DNA of 64,000 bases from a virus. Shown in pieces: positions 3,061-46,595 of this stretch. Both the position numbers and the translations under genes were made by a program. The notes beneath the pieces were generated by a model. It was not told the DNA's origin. It ran no database searches and saw nothing but the letters and a program-made list of their open reading frames with translations. Position 1 is the stretch's first letter. Each line of letters opens with the position of its first letter. Location: the IMG/VR virus record IMGVR_UViG_3300033145_001595, positions 1 through 64,000 of that record. One strand, given 5' to 3'.

Positions 3061-3086
3061 GAAAAGACCAGGAATTGGCCCGGCCT
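3061..3086 (-). terminator. Rho-independent terminator abutting P3
   Basis: The minus-strand stem GGCCGGG/CCTGGTC (7 bp with G-U pairs, 6-nt loop) is followed by TTTTCCC and then immediately by the -35 TTGACA of P3. It ends the P4 transcript. Confidence 0.75.
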
Positions 3087-3089
3087 TCC

Positions 3090-3257
3090 CTTGACGACGG
3101 CCCACTATCCGGTTGCGCTACTGGACCGTCTAGTGTGCAGGAGCGAGGGCAACGCCCTCATTGCATACTAGAGAGCTAGACCCTAGTACGCCCGTCGTTT
3201 CCTCTCCTAGCTCGAAAGTTATCGACCCTAGATATTCTCCCGCACCCTATTCCCTTT
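3090..3257 (-). other. Structured non-coding 3' region
   Basis: About 165 bp have no convincing gene. Leftward RNA could fold with an outer 7-bp stem ACGACGG/CCGTCGT and an inner hairpin CTAGTATGCA...TGCACACTAG that encloses GAGGGC-GTT-GCCCTC. The folding was found by eye. It may be a structured 3' UTR of the 87-aa gene or a small RNA. It has tRNA-like dimensions but no T-loop consensus. Confidence 0.4.
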
Positions 3258-3594: not shown

Positions 3595-3620
3595 GGGAAA
3601 AGGCCGGGGAAAACCCGGCC
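3595..3620 (-). terminator. Rho-independent terminator abutting P4
   Basis: Stem GGCCGGG/CCCGGCC with a 5-nt loop, then TTTTCCC and the -35 of P4. It ends the P5 transcript. Confidence 0.85.
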
Positions 3621-3644
3621 CCCCTTACTCCTAATCCCCTTCTC

Positions 3645-4666: not shown

Positions 4667-5209
4667 CTAAATTGTAGCGTCTACTAACTCCCTACGGACC
4701 CGTTGCAACTTCCACCTTGATAGCCCTAAATACTGTGCAACCAGTACCGGAAATGTCTTGCGCTTGTTGCTAGTGTCCCTACAGATAGCCTGCAATTCCG
4801 GCGGTGGGTCAAGCGCACACTGCAAGAACGCTTCCGCCCTATCACTTAGTGTGCCAGTGTCATGGCGAAAGAACAACGCTACGTCCCGCCCATCCCGTGA
4901 GATACGCACCGGCACGTCTGAACACGTCAAAGCGGTCACTACCGGCCCTACATCGGGTAATGCCTGCACACTGCGTAGCATAGCCTTTCGCAAAATATTA
5001 TGAAACTGCCTAATTAGACACGTATTCAGGTAGGTATTAAATGTGGCTTTCCCGCTTGGATTCCACGTTACCCTCACCCTATGCAGTACTATATTCCCTT
5101 CACTGATTAAATCGTCCAGCGACCAGATACCACGTCTTGTACCCATTTTTCGTAAACAAATCTTTGCCTGTATTTCAATGATTTTATCAGCCGTTACTAC
5201 CTTTGCCAT
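4667..5209 (-). CDS. Sigma-70-like RNA polymerase sigma factor
   Basis: The 180-aa protein has a region-2-like core: WSLDDLISEGNIVLHRV near residue 29 (compare DLIQEGNIGLLKAV of sigma-70), followed by FNTYLNTCLIRQFHNILRK (compare FSTYA-WWIRQAI-R). A C-terminal VAQYLGLSRWKLQRVRREL looks like a region-4 helix-turn-helix. It is shorter than host sigmas and lacks an evident region 3, like phage and ECF-type factors. In context it could redirect host polymerase from the consensus early promoters to the GTGTATAATA class found elsewhere in the window. The identification rests on motif resemblance; the promoter link is inference. Confidence 0.72.
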   Translation of the reverse strand: MAKVVTADKIIEIQAKICLRKMGTRRGIWSLDDLISEGNIVLHRVRVTWNPSGKATFNTYLNTCLIRQFHNILRKAMLRSVQALPDVGPVVTALTCSDVPVRISRDGRDVALFFRHDTGTLSDRAEAFLQCALDPPPELQAICRDTSNKRKTFPVLVAQYLGLSRWKLQRVRRELVDATI

Positions 5210-6774: not shown

Positions 6775-6799
6775 GGGAAAAGGCCGAGCTTCCTCGGCC
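6775..6799 (-). terminator. Rho-independent terminator abutting P8
   Basis: Stem GGCCGAG/CTCGGCC with a 4-nt loop, then TTTTCCC and the P8 -35. It ends the AAA+ ATPase transcript. Confidence 0.85.
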
Positions 6800-6813
6800 C
6801 CCCTTGCCCCCAT

Positions 6814-8754: not shown

Positions 8755-9056
8755 AAATAGCTACTTACAATCTACCCCGTCCTGTGTGTATAATACTCTG
8801 AACACACAAGCACCAACCAGCCCCACATCTTACAAGGCAATTATGGTGCAACAAAGAAAATATAAGATACGCACCATAAATAGTAATTGTGGTGCAATAG
8901 TGTAGTTGCAGTGTAAATAGAAAATATTGCGCAACAAATAAGATACAGGATGTGCCTCCCAAATTTTTTCACACACACACGATGCCACACAAATGTAGAT
9001 GTAGAAGTAGACGAGCGCGATACCTCACAAATGTAGATGTAGAACCACACACCCAA
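8755..9056. repeat. Duplicated non-coding element, copy A
   Basis: About 300 bp with no gene; partially repeated at 16,245-16,520. Shared blocks in the same order: a 24-bp block starting GTGTATAATACTCTG (8786-8809), GTGCAACAA (8846-8854), a 25-bp block around ATACGCACC and TAAATAGTAATTGT (8866-8890), AGTTGCA, and terminal (GTAGAW)n tracts (8991-9053). GGTGCAA/GCACC motifs occur in both orientations. It lies just past the XRE gene that ends the leftward 12-kb operon. Candidate roles are origin, operator array or small-RNA locus. Confidence 0.75.
8786..8809 (+). promoter_or_regulatory. GTGTATAATA promoter-like motif in element A
   Basis: TATAAT preceded by TGTG, with TTACAA 18 bp upstream. It is flanked by an imperfect TGTGT/ACACA inverted repeat and is identical over 24 bp to the copy in element B. 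There is no gene downstream on the + strand, so any transcript would be non-coding. Confidence 0.45.
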
Positions 9057-12636: not shown

Positions 12637-13917
12637 TTACGTACCTTCCTGCCAACCTGCCATGTAATCCTTCTGCCGCGTAGTCAACTTATCAATGTCA
12701 ATACCCATTGTCCCTAACTTCAACTCAGCTACCAATTTGTCAATGTGGATAGGAACGGAATAGACACCTGCCTTGGGTTCAAATTCCGTTCCCAACTCCT
12801 TAGTATACACAGCGTACTCCGACGTTAACGCCTGCACAGCGAAACTCATATCCATTACAGACGATGGGTGCCCCTCGGCAGCGGCCAAGTTCACAAGCCG
12901 CCCCTCTGCAAGAAGATAAATTCTTGTACCATGACCTGTCTCATACTCTTCTACGTTCTCTGCCTTCACTTCAAAATCATTCGACATTTCTACAAGATCA
13001 TCAATATTTATTTCAACATTGAAATGACCAGAGTTTGCAACTATCGCACCATCTTTCATCCGAGAAAAATGCTCTCGCCTTATCACATCAGCATTACCCG
13101 TCACAGTCACAAAAAGATCACCGTCCGGGACTGCTTCTTCCATCGTAGTCACTCGGAAACCATCCATAACGGCCTCCAACGCCCGCAACGGATCAACTTC
13201 CGTTACAGTAACATGAGCACCCATACCCTTCATACGACTAGCAAGGCCACGCCCACACATGCCATAACCAGCCACCACAACGTTCATTCCGGCTATCAGC
13301 GCACCCGTGCAACGTATAATACCGTCGACAGTACTCTGTCCAGTACCATAGCGATTGTCAAACAGGTGCTTGGTCATTGCGTCATTGACAGCGAACACAG
13401 GAAACAGAAGCATACCTGCACTCTCCATAGCCCGCAAACGATTCACACCTGTAGTAGTCTCTTCCATACTAGCTATTACATCAGTAGCCAATTCTTTACG
13501 TTCGGACAGAATAGCCGTCACAAGATCAGCACCATCGTCTATTGTAATATTTGGCTTATTGTCCAGTACACTGGTAATATGATTGTAATAAGTTTCATTT
13601 GTCTCACCATGCCGTGCAAATACAGGTATACCCCAATAATCCACCAACGCCGCAGCCACATCATCCTGTGTACTAAGGGGATTTGACCCACACAGTACTA
13701 TGTCCGCACCGCCAGCCTTCAAAGCCCGTGCCAAATTTGCAGTCTCAGCAGTTATATGCAAACAAGCCGAAATCCGCAAACCGGCAAACGGCCTCTCTGT
13801 CTCAAAGCGATCACGCACCATAGCCAAAACCGGCATGGACTTATTTGCCCACTCGATTCTTCGCAAACCACCTTTAGCCAACGACATATCCTTTACATCG
13901 TACTTACTCTGTTCCAT
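12637..13917 (-). CDS. ahcY: S-adenosylhomocysteine hydrolase (SahH)
   Basis: Splits S-adenosylhomocysteine to adenosine and homocysteine using bound NAD, removing the product inhibitor of SAM methyltransferases. The 426-aa length is normal. Visible features are HITAETANLARAL, GSNPLSTQDDVAAAL, HGETNETYYNHI and DDGADLV in the substrate domain, and the NAD loop GYGMCGRGLASRMKGMGAHV. The C-terminus ends TTRQKDYMAGWQEGT, like archaeal-type short enzymes, and lacks the KPDHYRY tail of the common bacterial/eukaryotic type; some archaeal members act on S-inosylhomocysteine. It sits in the P12 operon among small unknown genes. With several phage methyltransferases in the window, a SAH-clearing role is likely (inference). 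Confidence 0.95.
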   Translation of the reverse strand: MEQSKYDVKDMSLAKGGLRRIEWANKSMPVLAMVRDRFETERPFAGLRISACLHITAETANLARALKAGGADIVLCGSNPLSTQDDVAAALVDYWGIPVFARHGETNETYYNHITSVLDNKPNITIDDGADLVTAILSERKELATDVIASMEETTTGVNRLRAMESAGMLLFPVFAVNDAMTKHLFDNRYGTGQSTVDGIIRCTGALIAGMNVVVAGYGMCGRGLASRMKGMGAHVTVTEVDPLRALEAVMDGFRVTTMEEAVPDGDLFVTVTGNADVIRREHFSRMKDGAIVANSGHFNVEINIDDLVEMSNDFEVKAENVEEYETGHGTRIYLLAEGRLVNLAAAEGHPSSVMDMSFAVQALTSEYAVYTKELGTEFEPKAGVYSVPIHIDKLVAELKLGTMGIDIDKLTTRQKDYMAGWQEGT

Positions 13918-15098: not shown

Positions 15099-15892
15099 GG
15101 AAATTCTGGCTCAAGGTCTATACCAAGTTCCTGCAAATGATGAAAAACATCTGTCAACTTTTCCAAAGGAATATTAAACTTCACTTGTATCTCAGTACCA
15201 ACCGGACGGACAATCTTTGTTACGCCCCCACTACTACCAAGTCGATCAGCAATCTTAACATCTACTATAACCTTGAAATCAGCCGCTGCTTGTTCCTGTG
15301 TTTTCTTCTCTGCTTCCTTCTTTGCACAACGCTCCGCATGGTCAACACGCTGCTGAATAGACTCACGAATCTTTTCCCAATTAAACGAACCATCCTTTCG
15401 CATTGGAAAACTTTTATGATTAAAAACTCTACGCCTCCCATTTCGATAAGAACGATTATACTCAGTAACCGGCTCCAAAACGATACGCTTATTGTACGAC
15501 TCATAATGGAACCAATGATTAGCATTTGGAATATCGAAAACCTTCTCTCTTATAATTTCTATCAAAGCATCCTCAATAACAGCTTCTACTCTTCCTTTTT
15601 CCTCTACTATAGCTTCAGCATTCGCACTATCAAGTATTCGCTGCATTGCCTTATAAGAATAACCAATACGATTTTTCTGCACAATAGCATCCCGTATTAT
15701 ACCATACGACAATTCAACATCAAGAAGTTCAAAAAGATTTCTAACCACTTCATACTCACTCTCTGCCTCAACTCTATCCCCCTCAAATTCTGCAATATAA
15801 TGTTCTTCTACAATAAGAAAACCATTCCGACTTTCCGGTACATACGTAATGTCTATAGAAATACGCTGCACACCATCTGATCCCATTACCAT
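15095..15892 (-). CDS. Hypothetical 265-aa protein
   Basis: No family was recognised. The protein is charged and mostly helical after residue 60, with an Ala/Glu/Lys-rich segment (AERCAKKEAEKKTQEQAAADF). Start 15892 has AAGGGG 7 nt upstream. Its stop codon is the TGA of the P12 -35. A promoter-like TTGATG-N16-TATAAT (15,696-15,723) lies within its coding sequence and matches the early promoter -10 context. Confidence 0.78.
   Translation of the reverse strand: MVMGSDGVQRISIDITYVPESRNGFLIVEEHYIAEFEGDRVEAESEYEVVRNLFELLDVELSYGIIRDAIVQKNRIGYSYKAMQRILDSANAEAIVEEKGRVEAVIEDALIEIIREKVFDIPNANHWFHYESYNKRIVLEPVTEYNRSYRNGRRRVFNHKSFPMRKDGSFNWEKIRESIQQRVDHAERCAKKEAEKKTQEQAAADFKVIVDVKIADRLGSSGGVTKIVRPVGTEIQVKFNIPLEKLTDVFHHLQELGIDLEPEFP
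15696..15723 (-). promoter_or_regulatory. Internal promoter-like site
   Basis: TTGATG, 16 bp, TATAAT with extended -10 TGG and downstream ACGGG as in promoter P9. It lies inside the 265-aa gene and may be a decayed early promoter. Confidence 0.4.
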
Positions 15893-15940
15893 AATAAAGC
15901 CCCTTTCTTTTGAGGAACCTAATCCCGCATTATCTATAGT

Positions 15941-15970
15941 ATTATACACCTAACATATGTCAGTTTGTAA
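15941..15970 (-). promoter_or_regulatory. Promoter of the GGTGTATAATA class
   Basis: TATAAT (15946-15941) preceded by GGTG, with TTACAA 18 bp upstream. It drives the 265-aa gene. Confidence 0.6.
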
Positions 15971-15973
15971 GCA

Positions 15974-16015
15974 GAAAAAGAAAAACCCCGTGACTTTCTC
16001 TAACTAGCCACGAGG
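15974..16015 (-). terminator. Rho-independent terminator of the 16-kb ncRNA
   Basis: A 10-bp stem (16015-16006 with 15995-15986, one or two G-U) with a 10-nt loop, followed by TTTTTCTTTTTC on the minus strand. A textbook intrinsic terminator. Confidence 0.88.
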
Positions 16016-16188
16016 TTTCTCAACTTCATCACTCTGCTCAAAATGCAACATTTTTTAGTGTTGGGCCTACCAACTTACGTGAGTTCACATTTTCAATCCC
16101 CCTTGATTACACTCCCTTATCGATTATCCGCACTTCCATATTTCGGAAGTAATTCCTACCCCTACAAGGGGCACCCGTTCATACTCGA
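15977..16188 (-). ncRNA. Candidate ~210-nt non-coding RNA
   Basis: Bounded by its own promoter (-10 at 16,195-16,200) and the strong terminator at 15,974-16,015, with no ORF above about 15 codons on this strand. Hairpins visible by eye: GCCCCT-TGT-AGGGGT, ACTTCC-loop-GGAAGT and CAACA-loop-TGTTG, then the terminator. It does not match the sequence landmarks of RNase P, tmRNA, 6S or a SAH riboswitch that I could recognise. It may be a phage sRNA, or a leader whose terminator controls readthrough into the 265-aa gene. Confidence 0.6.
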
Positions 16189-16194
16189 CACTCT

Positions 16195-16225
16195 ATTATA
16201 CACCTACCTATAACCAATTTGCCAA
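16195..16225 (-). promoter_or_regulatory. Promoter of the 16-kb ncRNA
   Basis: TATAAT preceded by GGTG; TTGGCA lies 19 bp upstream. It is the same GGTGTATAATA class as the promoters at 15.9 and 26.3 kb. Confidence 0.62.
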
Positions 16226-16244: not shown

Positions 16245-16520
16245 CACACCAAGAATAGTAAAAATATCTATTGCATTCATATAGAGACAGCGTGTATAAT
16301 ACTCTGAACACACAAAATACACCATACATAAACAAATATAGTGCAACAATTGAAATATAAAATACGCACCTTAAATAGTAATTGTTGTATAACAATATAG
16401 TTGCAACTCAAATATAAATTATTACACAACAAGAAAAATATAAGAAATCTCACGCGCTCACTCACCCGTACGCACAATCCCATACAGAAGTAGAAGTAGA
16501 TGTAAATGTAGAACTTTTCA
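16245..16520. repeat. Duplicated non-coding element, copy B
   Basis: Same ordered blocks as element A: the 24-bp GTGTATAATACTCTG block (16292-16315), GTGCAACAA (16341-16349), the ATACGCACC/TAAATAGTAATTGT block (16361-16385), AGTTGCA, and a (GTAGAW)n tract (16484-16513). No gene. It lies just past the primase stop codon at the end of the 26-16.5 kb operon. A and B have diverged between blocks, so the conserved blocks are likely the functional parts. Confidence 0.75.
16292..16315 (+). promoter_or_regulatory. GTGTATAATA promoter-like motif in element B
   Basis: Identical over 24 bp to the motif in element A (TATAAT with upstream GTG and downstream ACTCTGAACACACAA). No clear -35. No + strand gene follows. 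Confidence 0.45.
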
Positions 16521-16521
16521 A

Positions 16522-17478
16522 TCAAATATAATCAGCATCATCTATCATAGCATAAAGCGCATCCTTACCCAACGTATCAGGGTCTTGCCCAACCGGAAGT
16601 CTCAGCACCTTCACTTTTGTAAACAACACTATGTCTCTAGCAACAGAAAGACTTTTAATATATGCATCAGAATCCCAAGCAATCACAACCTCTGTCACAT
16701 CATGTGCGCAAATAACACATTTCTGAAGAAACGAAATATTAGTTCCAAATGTAGCACAAGCCTCATCCCCAATTCTCCACACATCCAATGGCCCCTCAAC
16801 AAGAATCATCCTGCCGCCGCCACTCCACTTGTCCAAACCGTACAAAATTCCACGCTTGCTTAAACTGCCCATCGTATTAACGTACCTAGACCTATCCACA
16901 CCAGCAAGAAGGCAGCGCCCCACGTAAGCCACCACGTCATTATCATCCCGTATAGGTAGGATGAGACGTTGAGACCACTTATCACCGGATAGGGGCGCAT
17001 AGCCTGCTTCATACTTCTCACACAATTCAAATGTAAACTCACGTAAAATAAGAAATTTACAAACCAAAAAAGGTATTCTATCCCCATCTATTGGTCCTTC
17101 GTAGGGCACGTACTCATTGATTTCCTCAACTTCTTGTAATGCATCAACATCCTTCTTTTTACTTAATATTTCAGTAACGGCACTTACTACATCCACGCCC
17201 TCATACCGCATTTCATCTTCAATTGCGTCCTCAAAAGCTTCCTTACTCATTCCATCCAACAACTTTGAAACAAGAATCCAAACCGGGCCTGCTTTCCCGC
17301 ATCGCCAACAAGTAAAATTACTACCAGTGTCCAAAAATATTCCTAGATGATACCCGTCCTCATCATTACACCAAGGACAGCAAACACCGATACAGCGTTG
17401 AGTTATATTTTTATGAGAATCCACCCAATCTATGCCATTTTCATCAAAGAAGGCTTTTACTCTATCTATTCTCGCCAT
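16522..17478 (-). CDS. dnaG: DnaG-type DNA primase
   Basis: A 318-aa primase that makes RNA primers for lagging-strand synthesis. The N-terminal zinc ribbon has CCPWCND (about residue 33) and CWRCGK (about 57). The TOPRIM core has MILVEGPLDVWRIGDE and VVIAWDSDAY, supplying the catalytic acidic residues. It is shorter than host DnaG and lacks the helicase-interacting C-terminal domain, as is usual in phage primases. It is the last gene of the operon that begins near 26.3 kb and includes the DnaB-like helicase. Confidence 0.9.
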   Translation of the reverse strand: MARIDRVKAFFDENGIDWVDSHKNITQRCIGVCCPWCNDEDGYHLGIFLDTGSNFTCWRCGKAGPVWILVSKLLDGMSKEAFEDAIEDEMRYEGVDVVSAVTEILSKKKDVDALQEVEEINEYVPYEGPIDGDRIPFLVCKFLILREFTFELCEKYEAGYAPLSGDKWSQRLILPIRDDNDVVAYVGRCLLAGVDRSRYVNTMGSLSKRGILYGLDKWSGGGRMILVEGPLDVWRIGDEACATFGTNISFLQKCVICAHDVTEVVIAWDSDAYIKSLSVARDIVLFTKVKVLRLPVGQDPDTLGKDALYAMIDDADYI

Positions 17479-43344: not shown

Positions 43345-44103
43345 ATGGCGGGTAAACGACGGAAAACTACGGGGAGTCCCAAAACCCCACCAAAATCCCC
43401 AAAGACTGGTAGTAGCCGGAGAGTTCCCATCGCTCCCGGTTTAGAACAGTCTACTTCCGTCGAGCCCGCCCCATCTTTACAAGAACAAGAGCAAGAACAA
43501 AATGATGGTATTGTACAAGCCCTTTCTAATTCATCAAACATTATTGAACCCCCTATTGGACCTGTTGACCCTAACGATCCACCTATAAAAATGCCAAAAA
43601 CTTATTCAGCCGCTCGTATGTTAACAATACTTGAATCAATTGAAGGTGGACTAACATTAACTCATACATTAAGAGTACTAGGACTTACTAGAGTATTTGC
43701 ATATTGGCGAGAAAAAACACCAAAATTTATAGACGCTTTAATTGCTAGAGCAGAAAGTGTTTTTATAAAAACAAACATAGCTAGAATAAATAAAGCTGGT
43801 CAAAAATATTGGCAAGCAAATGCATGGTTACTTGAACGAAGATTCCCAAGTCAATTCTCACAGCAAAGAGGCGTCCCCGGAAAAGGTGGTGACAAGATAG
43901 GTCCAGTTAATATTGTATTTGTTTCCTCTGTTCCAAGACCCTATAAAACTATACAAAATCGTAGTAGACAATTTGGTGAACGTGGTAAAGGGCCAGAAGA
44001 GGTAGAAAATGAAAATAATGAGATTATGGAAATAATAGATGCTAACGCTAAAATAATAACTAATATTCCTAGACGTTCTTTACCAGAAGGTAATGAAGAA
44101 TAA
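43345..44103 (+). CDS. Terminase small subunit-like protein
   Basis: A 252-aa protein directly upstream of TerL and overlapping its ATG. Disordered Pro/Gln-rich N-terminus (to about residue 85); then a helix-turn-helix-like block (LTLTHTLRVLGLTRVFAYWREKTPKFIDALIARAE) and KAGQKYWQANAWLLERRFPSQFSQQ, which is typical of TerS/HTH-Tnp families where this segment follows the DNA-binding helices. It recognises the packaging site and controls TerL. Confidence 0.8.
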   Translation: MAGKRRKTTGSPKTPPKSPKTGSSRRVPIAPGLEQSTSVEPAPSLQEQEQEQNDGIVQALSNSSNIIEPPIGPVDPNDPPIKMPKTYSAARMLTILESIEGGLTLTHTLRVLGLTRVFAYWREKTPKFIDALIARAESVFIKTNIARINKAGQKYWQANAWLLERRFPSQFSQQRGVPGKGGDKIGPVNIVFVSSVPRPYKTIQNRSRQFGERGKGPEEVENENNEIMEIIDANAKIITNIPRRSLPEGNEE

Positions 44104-46595
44104 TGGCGCAAGAAATAGATGAATTTGATATACAAGAAGCACCAGATGGGAAACTAATAGTAGACTTCGCATCTGCTTATACACCAAATCCCCGTCAAGC
44201 TATAGCCCATACAGCAGAGCCAAGATACGTATTATTTGGTGGCGCTATGGGAGGGGGCAAGTTTGGTCCTCTTTCTAGCACCGTATTTACACCCTTTGGC
44301 CCCAAGAAAATGGGTAACATAAAAGTAGGAGATTTAGTTTCTTGCCCTGATGGAACAAATGCAAATGTAATAAAAATATGGCCGCAAGGAATACAACAAC
44401 TTTACAAAGTAACTTTTTCTGATGGATCAAGTACACGAGTAGGCAGAGACCATCTTTGGACGTATAAAAAAGCAATGGGACGTTCTAAAATGAACTGCAC
44501 ATTACTTACGAAAGATAGAAAAATTTTAATAGATCATGCCCAAACAAACACTACTGAATTTCTAATGGATCATCTTAACAGCCGACACGAACGTAAAACT
44601 CCTTACTGGCCTTTAATTCCAATGACAGAACCTGTTCAGTTTACACCGGGATACAGAAATAAAGAAGTCTCTGTACCTATCCATCCCTATGTATTAGGAG
44701 TTCTATTGGGTGATGGATGTATAACAAATAAAAATTCATTAAATATAACAACAGGTGATACTGAAATTATAGAATTTATTCGTAATGATTGTCAGTACCA
44801 AGATATTAATACCTATACTTATCCTAATACTCCTACATCTTCCAATAAATATAGTATAAAATTTAATGGCAGAAGTAAGACTGTAATAGTTTGTGGATTA
44901 AAAAGACTTAATTTACTCGGCACCAAATCTAATACCAAGTTCATTCCAGAAGCCTATATGCACGCTTCCCTTGAAGATAGGTGGGCATTAGTTAATGGAA
45001 TGATGGATACGGATGGGTCGGCTTGGGAAAAAAATGGTCGTTGCACATGGTCGTCTGTTTCTAAAAAAATGGCCGATCAATTCCGTTGGGTACTAATGAG
45101 TCTTGGCTTCCGAGCTAACATAGTAGCAAGCGAAGGTTCCTACAAAAAGGACAATGGGGAAAAAGTTATTTGTAAGATGTCCTATGAACTTAATATTCAA
45201 GGACGCTACAAAGACAAACTATTCCGACTACCAAGAAAAATAGCTAAAACAGACCAGCGTTATAATGGCAAGCACGTAGACGACAACCCAGTACTCCGTA
45301 GAATGGTAAGCATTGAACCGGACGGTATGGAAGAGTGCCAGTGCATCACTATTAATCACCCCTATGGTCTGTACCTAACAGACGACTTTATCGTTACACA
45401 CAACAGCGTCTGGCTGTGTGCAGAAAGCATCCAATTATGCCTCGACTTCCCCGGTAATCGTGGATTTCTATGCAGGCACGAAAATATTACTTTTAGTAAA
45501 ACAACATTATTAACTTTATTAGAAATTTTACCTACAAATGGTGTAACTAAACACGATAAAAAAGATCAGTACATAGAATTTGTAAATGGTAGTAGACTAT
45601 ATTATGGTGGATTGCGTCCTACTCAAAGTCAAAGACCATTAGATAGAATTAAAAGTTGGGATTTAGGTTTCTTTGGTATTGACGAAGCCTCTGAAACACA
45701 ACGTGATTATTTCTTAATGTTGTGTACTCGTTTAAGACGCAAAGGTGTACCATCTACAGCATACAAAGGTTTATTAACAAGTAACCCTGAACCGGGATGG
45801 GTGAAGCAAGACTTTGTAGATCAACCAATGGAAAATAGCATTTTCATTCCTGCATTGCCTAGAGACAACCCAAAGCTACCAGACGACTATGAGGACCAAT
45901 TGAAGTCTGCCTTTGGTCAGACTAAGGGTTGGGTTGAACGTTACTTAGAGGGCGACTGGAACGCTCCTATGGGGCTAGCCGGGGAGTTCTACGTGTTCTC
46001 GTGGTCAATGATCCAACAAGCCGCACGAATAGACTTAATGTCTACGTTAGAGCCTGTAGAAATGGGTATTGATGTTGCTCGTAGTGGTTCCGATAAAACT
46101 GTTATGTATTTAAGACGCGGACCAAATGCACAGTTATTAGTAGACGATCATATAACTGATACAATGGCAGTAGCAGAACTCGCAAAGTCGCTTATTGAGC
46201 GGTATAATCCTAGTGTAGTAAGGGTGGATGCTATCGGTATAGGTGCTGGTGTTTACGATAGGCTTCATCAATTTTATCCTGAAGATGATCGTATTGTAGA
46301 ATTTGTAGCTGGTAGTACTGCGGTTGAAAGTGAAAGATTTTTTAATGCTCGTAGTGAAATTGCTTGGTTAATTCGGGAACGGGCAGAACGTGGAGAAATT
46401 AGTATACCCGATGATCCAGAATTACATGGACAAATGACTGCACTGAGATATAAATTAAGAGCAGATAAAAAAATACAAATAGAAGGAAAAGAAGATATGA
46501 GAAAGAGGGGTATGCGTAGCCCCGATAAATTTGATGCGTTATGTTTGACTTTTGGTGGTGGGAAACAGGGTGAACTTTTTATAGCATTTGGGTGA
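44103..46595 (+). CDS. terL: Large terminase subunit (TerL) with intein
   Basis: An 830-aa precursor. The exteins (residues 1-53 and 435-830, 449 aa after splicing) form the packaging motor: Walker A GGAMGGGK, split by the intein and completed by Ser435; Walker B LGFFGIDEASE; coupling motif LLTSNPEPGW; and an RNase H-fold nuclease with MGIDVARSGSDKTVM, VRVDAIGIGAG and KFDALCLTF. The intein lies exactly between the Walker A Lys and Ser, so the unspliced protein cannot bind ATP. The stop overlaps the next gene's possible GTG start. Confidence 0.95.
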   Translation: MAQEIDEFDIQEAPDGKLIVDFASAYTPNPRQAIAHTAEPRYVLFGGAMGGGKFGPLSSTVFTPFGPKKMGNIKVGDLVSCPDGTNANVIKIWPQGIQQLYKVTFSDGSSTRVGRDHLWTYKKAMGRSKMNCTLLTKDRKILIDHAQTNTTEFLMDHLNSRHERKTPYWPLIPMTEPVQFTPGYRNKEVSVPIHPYVLGVLLGDGCITNKNSLNITTGDTEIIEFIRNDCQYQDINTYTYPNTPTSSNKYSIKFNGRSKTVIVCGLKRLNLLGTKSNTKFIPEAYMHASLEDRWALVNGMMDTDGSAWEKNGRCTWSSVSKKMADQFRWVLMSLGFRANIVASEGSYKKDNGEKVICKMSYELNIQGRYKDKLFRLPRKIAKTDQRYNGKHVDDNPVLRRMVSIEPDGMEECQCITINHPYGLYLTDDFIVTHNSVWLCAESIQLCLDFPGNRGFLCRHENITFSKTTLLTLLEILPTNGVTKHDKKDQYIEFVNGSRLYYGGLRPTQSQRPLDRIKSWDLGFFGIDEASETQRDYFLMLCTRLRRKGVPSTAYKGLLTSNPEPGWVKQDFVDQPMENSIFIPALPRDNPKLPDDYEDQLKSAFGQTKGWVERYLEGDWNAPMGLAGEFYVFSWSMIQQAARIDLMSTLEPVEMGIDVARSGSDKTVMYLRRGPNAQLLVDDHITDTMAVAELAKSLIERYNPSVVRVDAIGIGAGVYDRLHQFYPEDDRIVEFVAGSTAVESERFFNARSEIAWLIRERAERGEISIPDDPELHGQMTALRYKLRADKKIQIEGKEDMRKRGMRSPDKFDALCLTFGGGKQGELFIAFG
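44262..45404 (+). mobile_element. Intein with LAGLIDADG homing endonuclease (class-3-like)
   Basis: Residues 54-434 (381 aa) of TerL. The N-terminal residue is Phe (FGPLSSTVFTPFGPKKMGNI), not Cys/Ser/Ala, followed by a normal Hint block GNIKVGDLVSCPDG. Class 3 inteins use a W-C-T triplet: Trp in DHLWTY (119), Cys in EECQCITINH (412 or 414) and Thr of the final VTHN (432); all are visible. Asn434 precedes Ser435. Endonuclease motifs LGVLLGDG (about 197) and VNGMMDTDG (about 297) are intact. Insertion is in the conserved Walker A. Confidence 0.92.

Follow-up and report, generated by a model that had tools for sequence, protein, structure and literature searches.

The 6S RNA of phage lambda is the terminated leader of a late promoter, with ~200 nt between promoter and terminator and a gene downstream, and the pRNA of phi29 is a phage RNA with its own promoter. 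The OOP RNA of lambdoid phages has a strong terminator. OOP is also short, has its own promoter and lies beside replication genes, and, with PreS of lambda and VpdS of phage VP882, both trans-acting phage small RNAs (sRNAs), it is among the short phage RNAs that regulate host and phage genes (reviewed in PMC12197685). Stand-alone sRNAs are little known in phages outside well-studied hosts.

Here we analyzed a leftward unit (16225–15975) in a window of 64,000 bases, which comprises bases 1–64000 of a virus record of 102,928 bases (102.9 kb). The unit is well supported by its sequence signals and probably makes a small RNA of ~213 bases. We propose, with a probability of about 45%, that it is a stand-alone, largely unstructured, trans-acting phage sRNA of ~213 nt. 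The features that bear on this reading are as follows.

16194–16225, minus strand: promoter of the leftward unit, with TTGGCA at 16225–16220, a spacer of 19 nt and TATAAT at 16200–16195, the latter inside GTGTATAATA at 16203–16194
15975–16188, minus strand: predicted transcript of ~213 nt, placed by promoter and terminator, from about 16188 to the T-run
16022–16188, minus strand: RNA body, rich in G (0.31) and poor in C (0.13), with no structure beyond chance
16038–16104, minus strand: short frames, namely a Shine–Dalgarno-like AAGGGGG at 16104–16098, AUG-UGA at 16090–16085 and an overlapping 16-codon GUG frame at 16088–16038
15974–16021, minus strand: intrinsic terminator, a stem-loop at 16021–15980 followed by TTTTTC
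15940–15949, minus strand: next promoter, which shares the motif of the unit's promoter and lies just beyond the terminator; it serves gene 15892–15095
16292–16445, plus strand: AT-rich repeat element that carries a divergent GTGTATAATA promoter and separates the unit from the primase gene
435, 1616, 3035, 3571, 4057, 4394, 6412, 6751, 8390, 8701, 11948 and 15075, minus strand: copies of a second promoter motif, TTGACA-N17-TATAAT

By layout only, the candidate is of the same kind as PreS and VpdS, that is, a short phage-encoded regulatory RNA. Whereas those two have demonstrated transcripts, Hfq dependence and targets, the candidate is known from sequence signals alone, and we found no sequence relation between it and either of them. 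It shares with OOP an own promoter and a strong terminator beside a replication gene; however, OOP is antisense to cII, whereas our unit overlaps no opposite-strand gene with coding signal, and a link to an origin is speculative. The spacing of ~200 nt from promoter to terminator, followed by a gene, recalls lambda 6S RNA, but the gene downstream of the candidate has its own promoter past the terminator. The candidate is similar to phi29 pRNA in length and in having its own promoter and differs from it in three respects: it has no Rfam match, the phage has a large terminase, and the body lacks a stable fold.

Genome setting and promoter classes

The record is a virus of bacteria, and the genes in the window include those for a DNA polymerase of family A that has a UDG domain, a large terminase, an S-adenosylhomocysteine hydrolase, helicases and a primase. 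Using the primase, helicase, downstream gene, promoter repeat, AT-rich element, terminase and DNA polymerase as queries, we found no close relatives of this phage among viral contigs, species genomes and annotated phages. The sole relatives recovered were those of the terminase, at ≤ ~50% identity; their records, many of which are fragments, have only structural and a few other genes in common with the phage, and neither its primase nor the RNA region was seen in them. The terminase gene itself (44103–46595, plus strand) carries an in-frame LAGLIDADG-type insert directly after the Walker motif, placed at residues 53–435 by comparison with uninterrupted relatives, which is probably an intein. 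The S-adenosylhomocysteine hydrolase gene (12637–13917, minus strand), which has a Pfam AdoHcyase match and no PHROGs match, is an unusual metabolic gene for a phage. A search for tRNA and tmRNA genes returned none.

The preliminary description, made from the sequence without database searches, had proposed a leftward TTGGCA-N19-TATAAT promoter, and both hexamers and the 19-nt spacer are indeed present on the minus strand. This arrangement falls outside the sigma-70 type, in which the hexamers lie 16–18 nt apart: TATAAT is perfect and TTGGCA matches at five of six positions, but a 19-nt spacer is poor for sigma-70 and beyond its usual range, which is why the promoter is absent from a simple promoter scan. 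The GTGTATAATA 10-mer around the −10 box is a stronger promoter signal than the hexamer pair. Of this 10-mer, 7 copies lie in the window, where 0.26 would be expected, and no shuffle reaches that count; the whole 102.9-kb record has 10. Because it precedes several protein genes, with starts at 15892 (minus), 28474 (plus), 32713 (plus), 93076 (minus), 94483 (minus) and 99014 (minus), it represents a promoter class of this phage. To judge from its sequence, the unit's promoter belongs to this GTGTATAATA class and not to the sigma-70 type.

The second promoter class, TTGACA-N17-TATAAT, has long shared context and about a dozen leftward copies. Most of these precede a leader hairpin, TACTCT/GGAGTA, in which the 3′ arm overlaps the Shine–Dalgarno sequence. 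G–U pairs and loop variation occur among the copies of this hairpin, which possibly provides shared translational control of small genes. The left part of the phage is a series of promoter–gene–terminator cassettes of small genes. At the G+C-rich terminator hairpins 3601–3621, 3063–3088 and 6781–6800 (minus strand), the T-run directly adjoins the −35 box of the promoter that follows, making each terminator–promoter pair a compact joint between cassettes. The protein encoded at 4667–5209 (minus strand) has weak similarity to sigma-70 region 2, just below the Pfam cut-off, and might read one of the two phage promoter classes.

Terminator, transcript body and coding capacity

The terminator is strong, as the preliminary description had held, but its stem is longer than the 10 bp given there, with 16 pairs when the A/U-rich base is included, a loop of 10 nt and a folding energy of −22 kcal/mol. 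It ranks third among the 55 hairpin-plus-T sites in the record, and none of 200 shuffles of the gap contained a terminator as good. A simple terminator scan missed it because of the 10-nt loop. The terminator would also insulate the next gene, 15892–15095, which has its own promoter; the structure predicted for that gene's protein is too poor to use (pLDDT 38).

Folded with its terminator, the RNA is more stable than shuffled sequence (z = −3.2). Without it, the 172-nt body folds at −36.4 kcal/mol and its shuffled versions at −35.8 kcal/mol on average (z = −0.17), and local windows over the body give z of about −1 to +1.5, in agreement with a leftward-strand scan of the first 27 kb. The several small hairpins noted earlier are therefore what any such sequence gives. 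What stands of the original proposal of a stand-alone ncRNA of ~210 nt is a discrete non-coding unit of ~213 nt, bounded by promoter and terminator; a structured or functional ncRNA goes beyond what these data support. An unstructured body does not count against a base-pairing sRNA, but the case for a structured RNA class loses support. Two further ideas about the body were dropped, namely an unusual G+C content and a protein-sequestering RNA of the CsrB/RsmZ type, for which we counted 5 GGA motifs against 4.98 expected.

The absence of any open reading frame (ORF) over about 15 codons was borne out, the longest on the leftward strand between start and terminator having 16 codons. Among the 18 leftward promoters examined, only that of the unit is without an ORF of >16 codons before the next promoter; after each of the other 17 comes an ORF of 60 or more codons. 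ORFs overlapping the unit on both strands lack the codon signature of the phage, and the search for a coding frame was negative for both; the 56-codon ORF on the opposite strand has a codon log-odds of −0.36 compared to a mean of 0.34 for phage genes. The class of the promoter motif, the terminator and the non-coding status of the unit are all computational observations. We rejected the notion that the unit occupies the largest non-coding gap of the record, since gaps of similar nominal length exist elsewhere; several of them hold small genes below the ORF cut-off used.

No family in Rfam 15 (4,227 families, including 6S, tmRNA, riboswitches and known phage RNAs) matched the window at or above its gathering threshold, in keeping with the earlier remark that landmarks of common RNA families are missing. 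At E values up to 10, we observed only weak, chance-level matches, mostly to the terminator hairpin and otherwise to the flanks. Searches by blastn found no homologue of the unit in phages, plasmids or the 18 records of distant terminase relatives, and exact 18-mers found no match in viral contigs; there is therefore no sign of purifying selection. Duplex energies between the RNA and all translation starts of the phage were not above those of shuffled RNA, and 56 of 60 shuffles did at least as well in a search for antisense targets among phage genes. An 18-nt near-match between the RNA (16092–16075) and the antisense strand of the primase gene (17029–17046) was discarded as no better than matches elsewhere in the record.

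Interpretation of the unit

In the reading that we favor, polymerase would start at the GTGTATAATA promoter, cross ~170 nt of mostly unstructured, G-rich and C-poor sequence and stop at the strong intrinsic terminator. The terminator stem and U-tail would protect the 3′ end, and accessible stretches of the RNA would most likely pair in trans with transcripts of the host. Synthesis of the RNA, its stability and its action by base pairing are inferences. The sRNA reading is favored because the unit combines a promoter class common to protein genes with a terminator beyond all shuffles, because its promoter alone among the leftward ones examined has no longer ORF before the next promoter, because neither strand shows the codon signature, and because a separate promoter beyond the terminator serves the next gene. 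It is weakened by the unstructured body, the lack of a homologue, the lack of a phage target above shuffles and the unusual −35 spacing.

The strongest rival, which we consider rather unlikely, is that the unit is a gene cassette that lost its gene and kept only its terminator, which would also stop the leftward primase operon, so that the RNA is a by-product. The promoter–gene–terminator layout found elsewhere in the record fits this idea, as does a body without structure or relatives, and the stretch from the primase stop codon (16522) to the unit's terminator contains no second strong one, so that this terminator would be retained regardless. However, the gap contains no remnant coding signal, its peptides resemble no other protein of the phage beyond a D5 repeat and trivial matches, and the promoter motif is intact. 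The order of promoter, ~200 nt, strong terminator and same-direction gene also suits a terminated leader of gene 15892–15095 under antitermination, as in lambda 6S RNA from the late promoter. We regard this as improbable because a separate promoter of the same class, located beyond the terminator, serves this gene, and because neither terminator arm has an alternative partner, as antiterminator pairing would involve, that is better than in shuffles.

A slightly smaller chance attaches to an mRNA that encodes a very short peptide, or to a start–stop site that engages ribosomes, built on AAGGGGG, AUG-UGA and the 16-codon GUG frame. The AAGGGGG site pairs with the anti-Shine–Dalgarno sequence at −10.4 kcal/mol, stronger than most of the phage's own starts, but sites of equal strength arise in 9–21% of shuffled bodies and the GUG frame has a low codon score (0.09), and the arrangement may be due to chance. 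Less probable again is a transcript connected with a replication origin in the adjoining AT-rich repeat element, in the way that OOP RNA lies beside the lambda origin. This element (GC 21–29%) is next to the primase gene and has a second copy in the record; at that second copy, however, the matching leftward position is taken by a protein gene (8648–8403) and not by an RNA, and the cumulative GC skew turns near 26 kb, although gene orientation turns there too. Least probable, and a long shot, is the founding member of a phage RNA class that functions with little structure, for instance through contact of its AAGGGGG-AUG-UGA site with ribosomes or the anti-Shine–Dalgarno sequence, and whose transcription during infection would start from a phage-specific promoter class. 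On present evidence, the unit is one more plausible, unproven phage sRNA. If the sRNA reading is true, it would place one such RNA, under a promoter class common to protein genes, in a phage lineage for which the collections searched yielded no close relatives.

Other RNA and repeat elements in the window

The two copies of the AT-rich element (8786–8950 and 16292–16445, plus strand) are 77% identical over 113 nt and rich in TTGTTG/CAACAA inverted repeats. Each copy is led by a rightward GTGTATAATACTCTGAACACACAA promoter and sited past the end of a leftward gene; the element could be an operator or an origin.

Another RNA candidate, at 3257–3094 (minus strand), lies between the stop codon of a small gene (ORF 3521–3258) and that gene's terminator. 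We found no match to it in Rfam or phage records and no second copy in the record. Its 164 nt fold at −73 kcal/mol (z = −5.0; none of 200 shuffles as good) into a closed multi-branch domain containing several hairpins, with a further single hairpin after it, making it a better-structured RNA candidate than the 16225–15975 unit.
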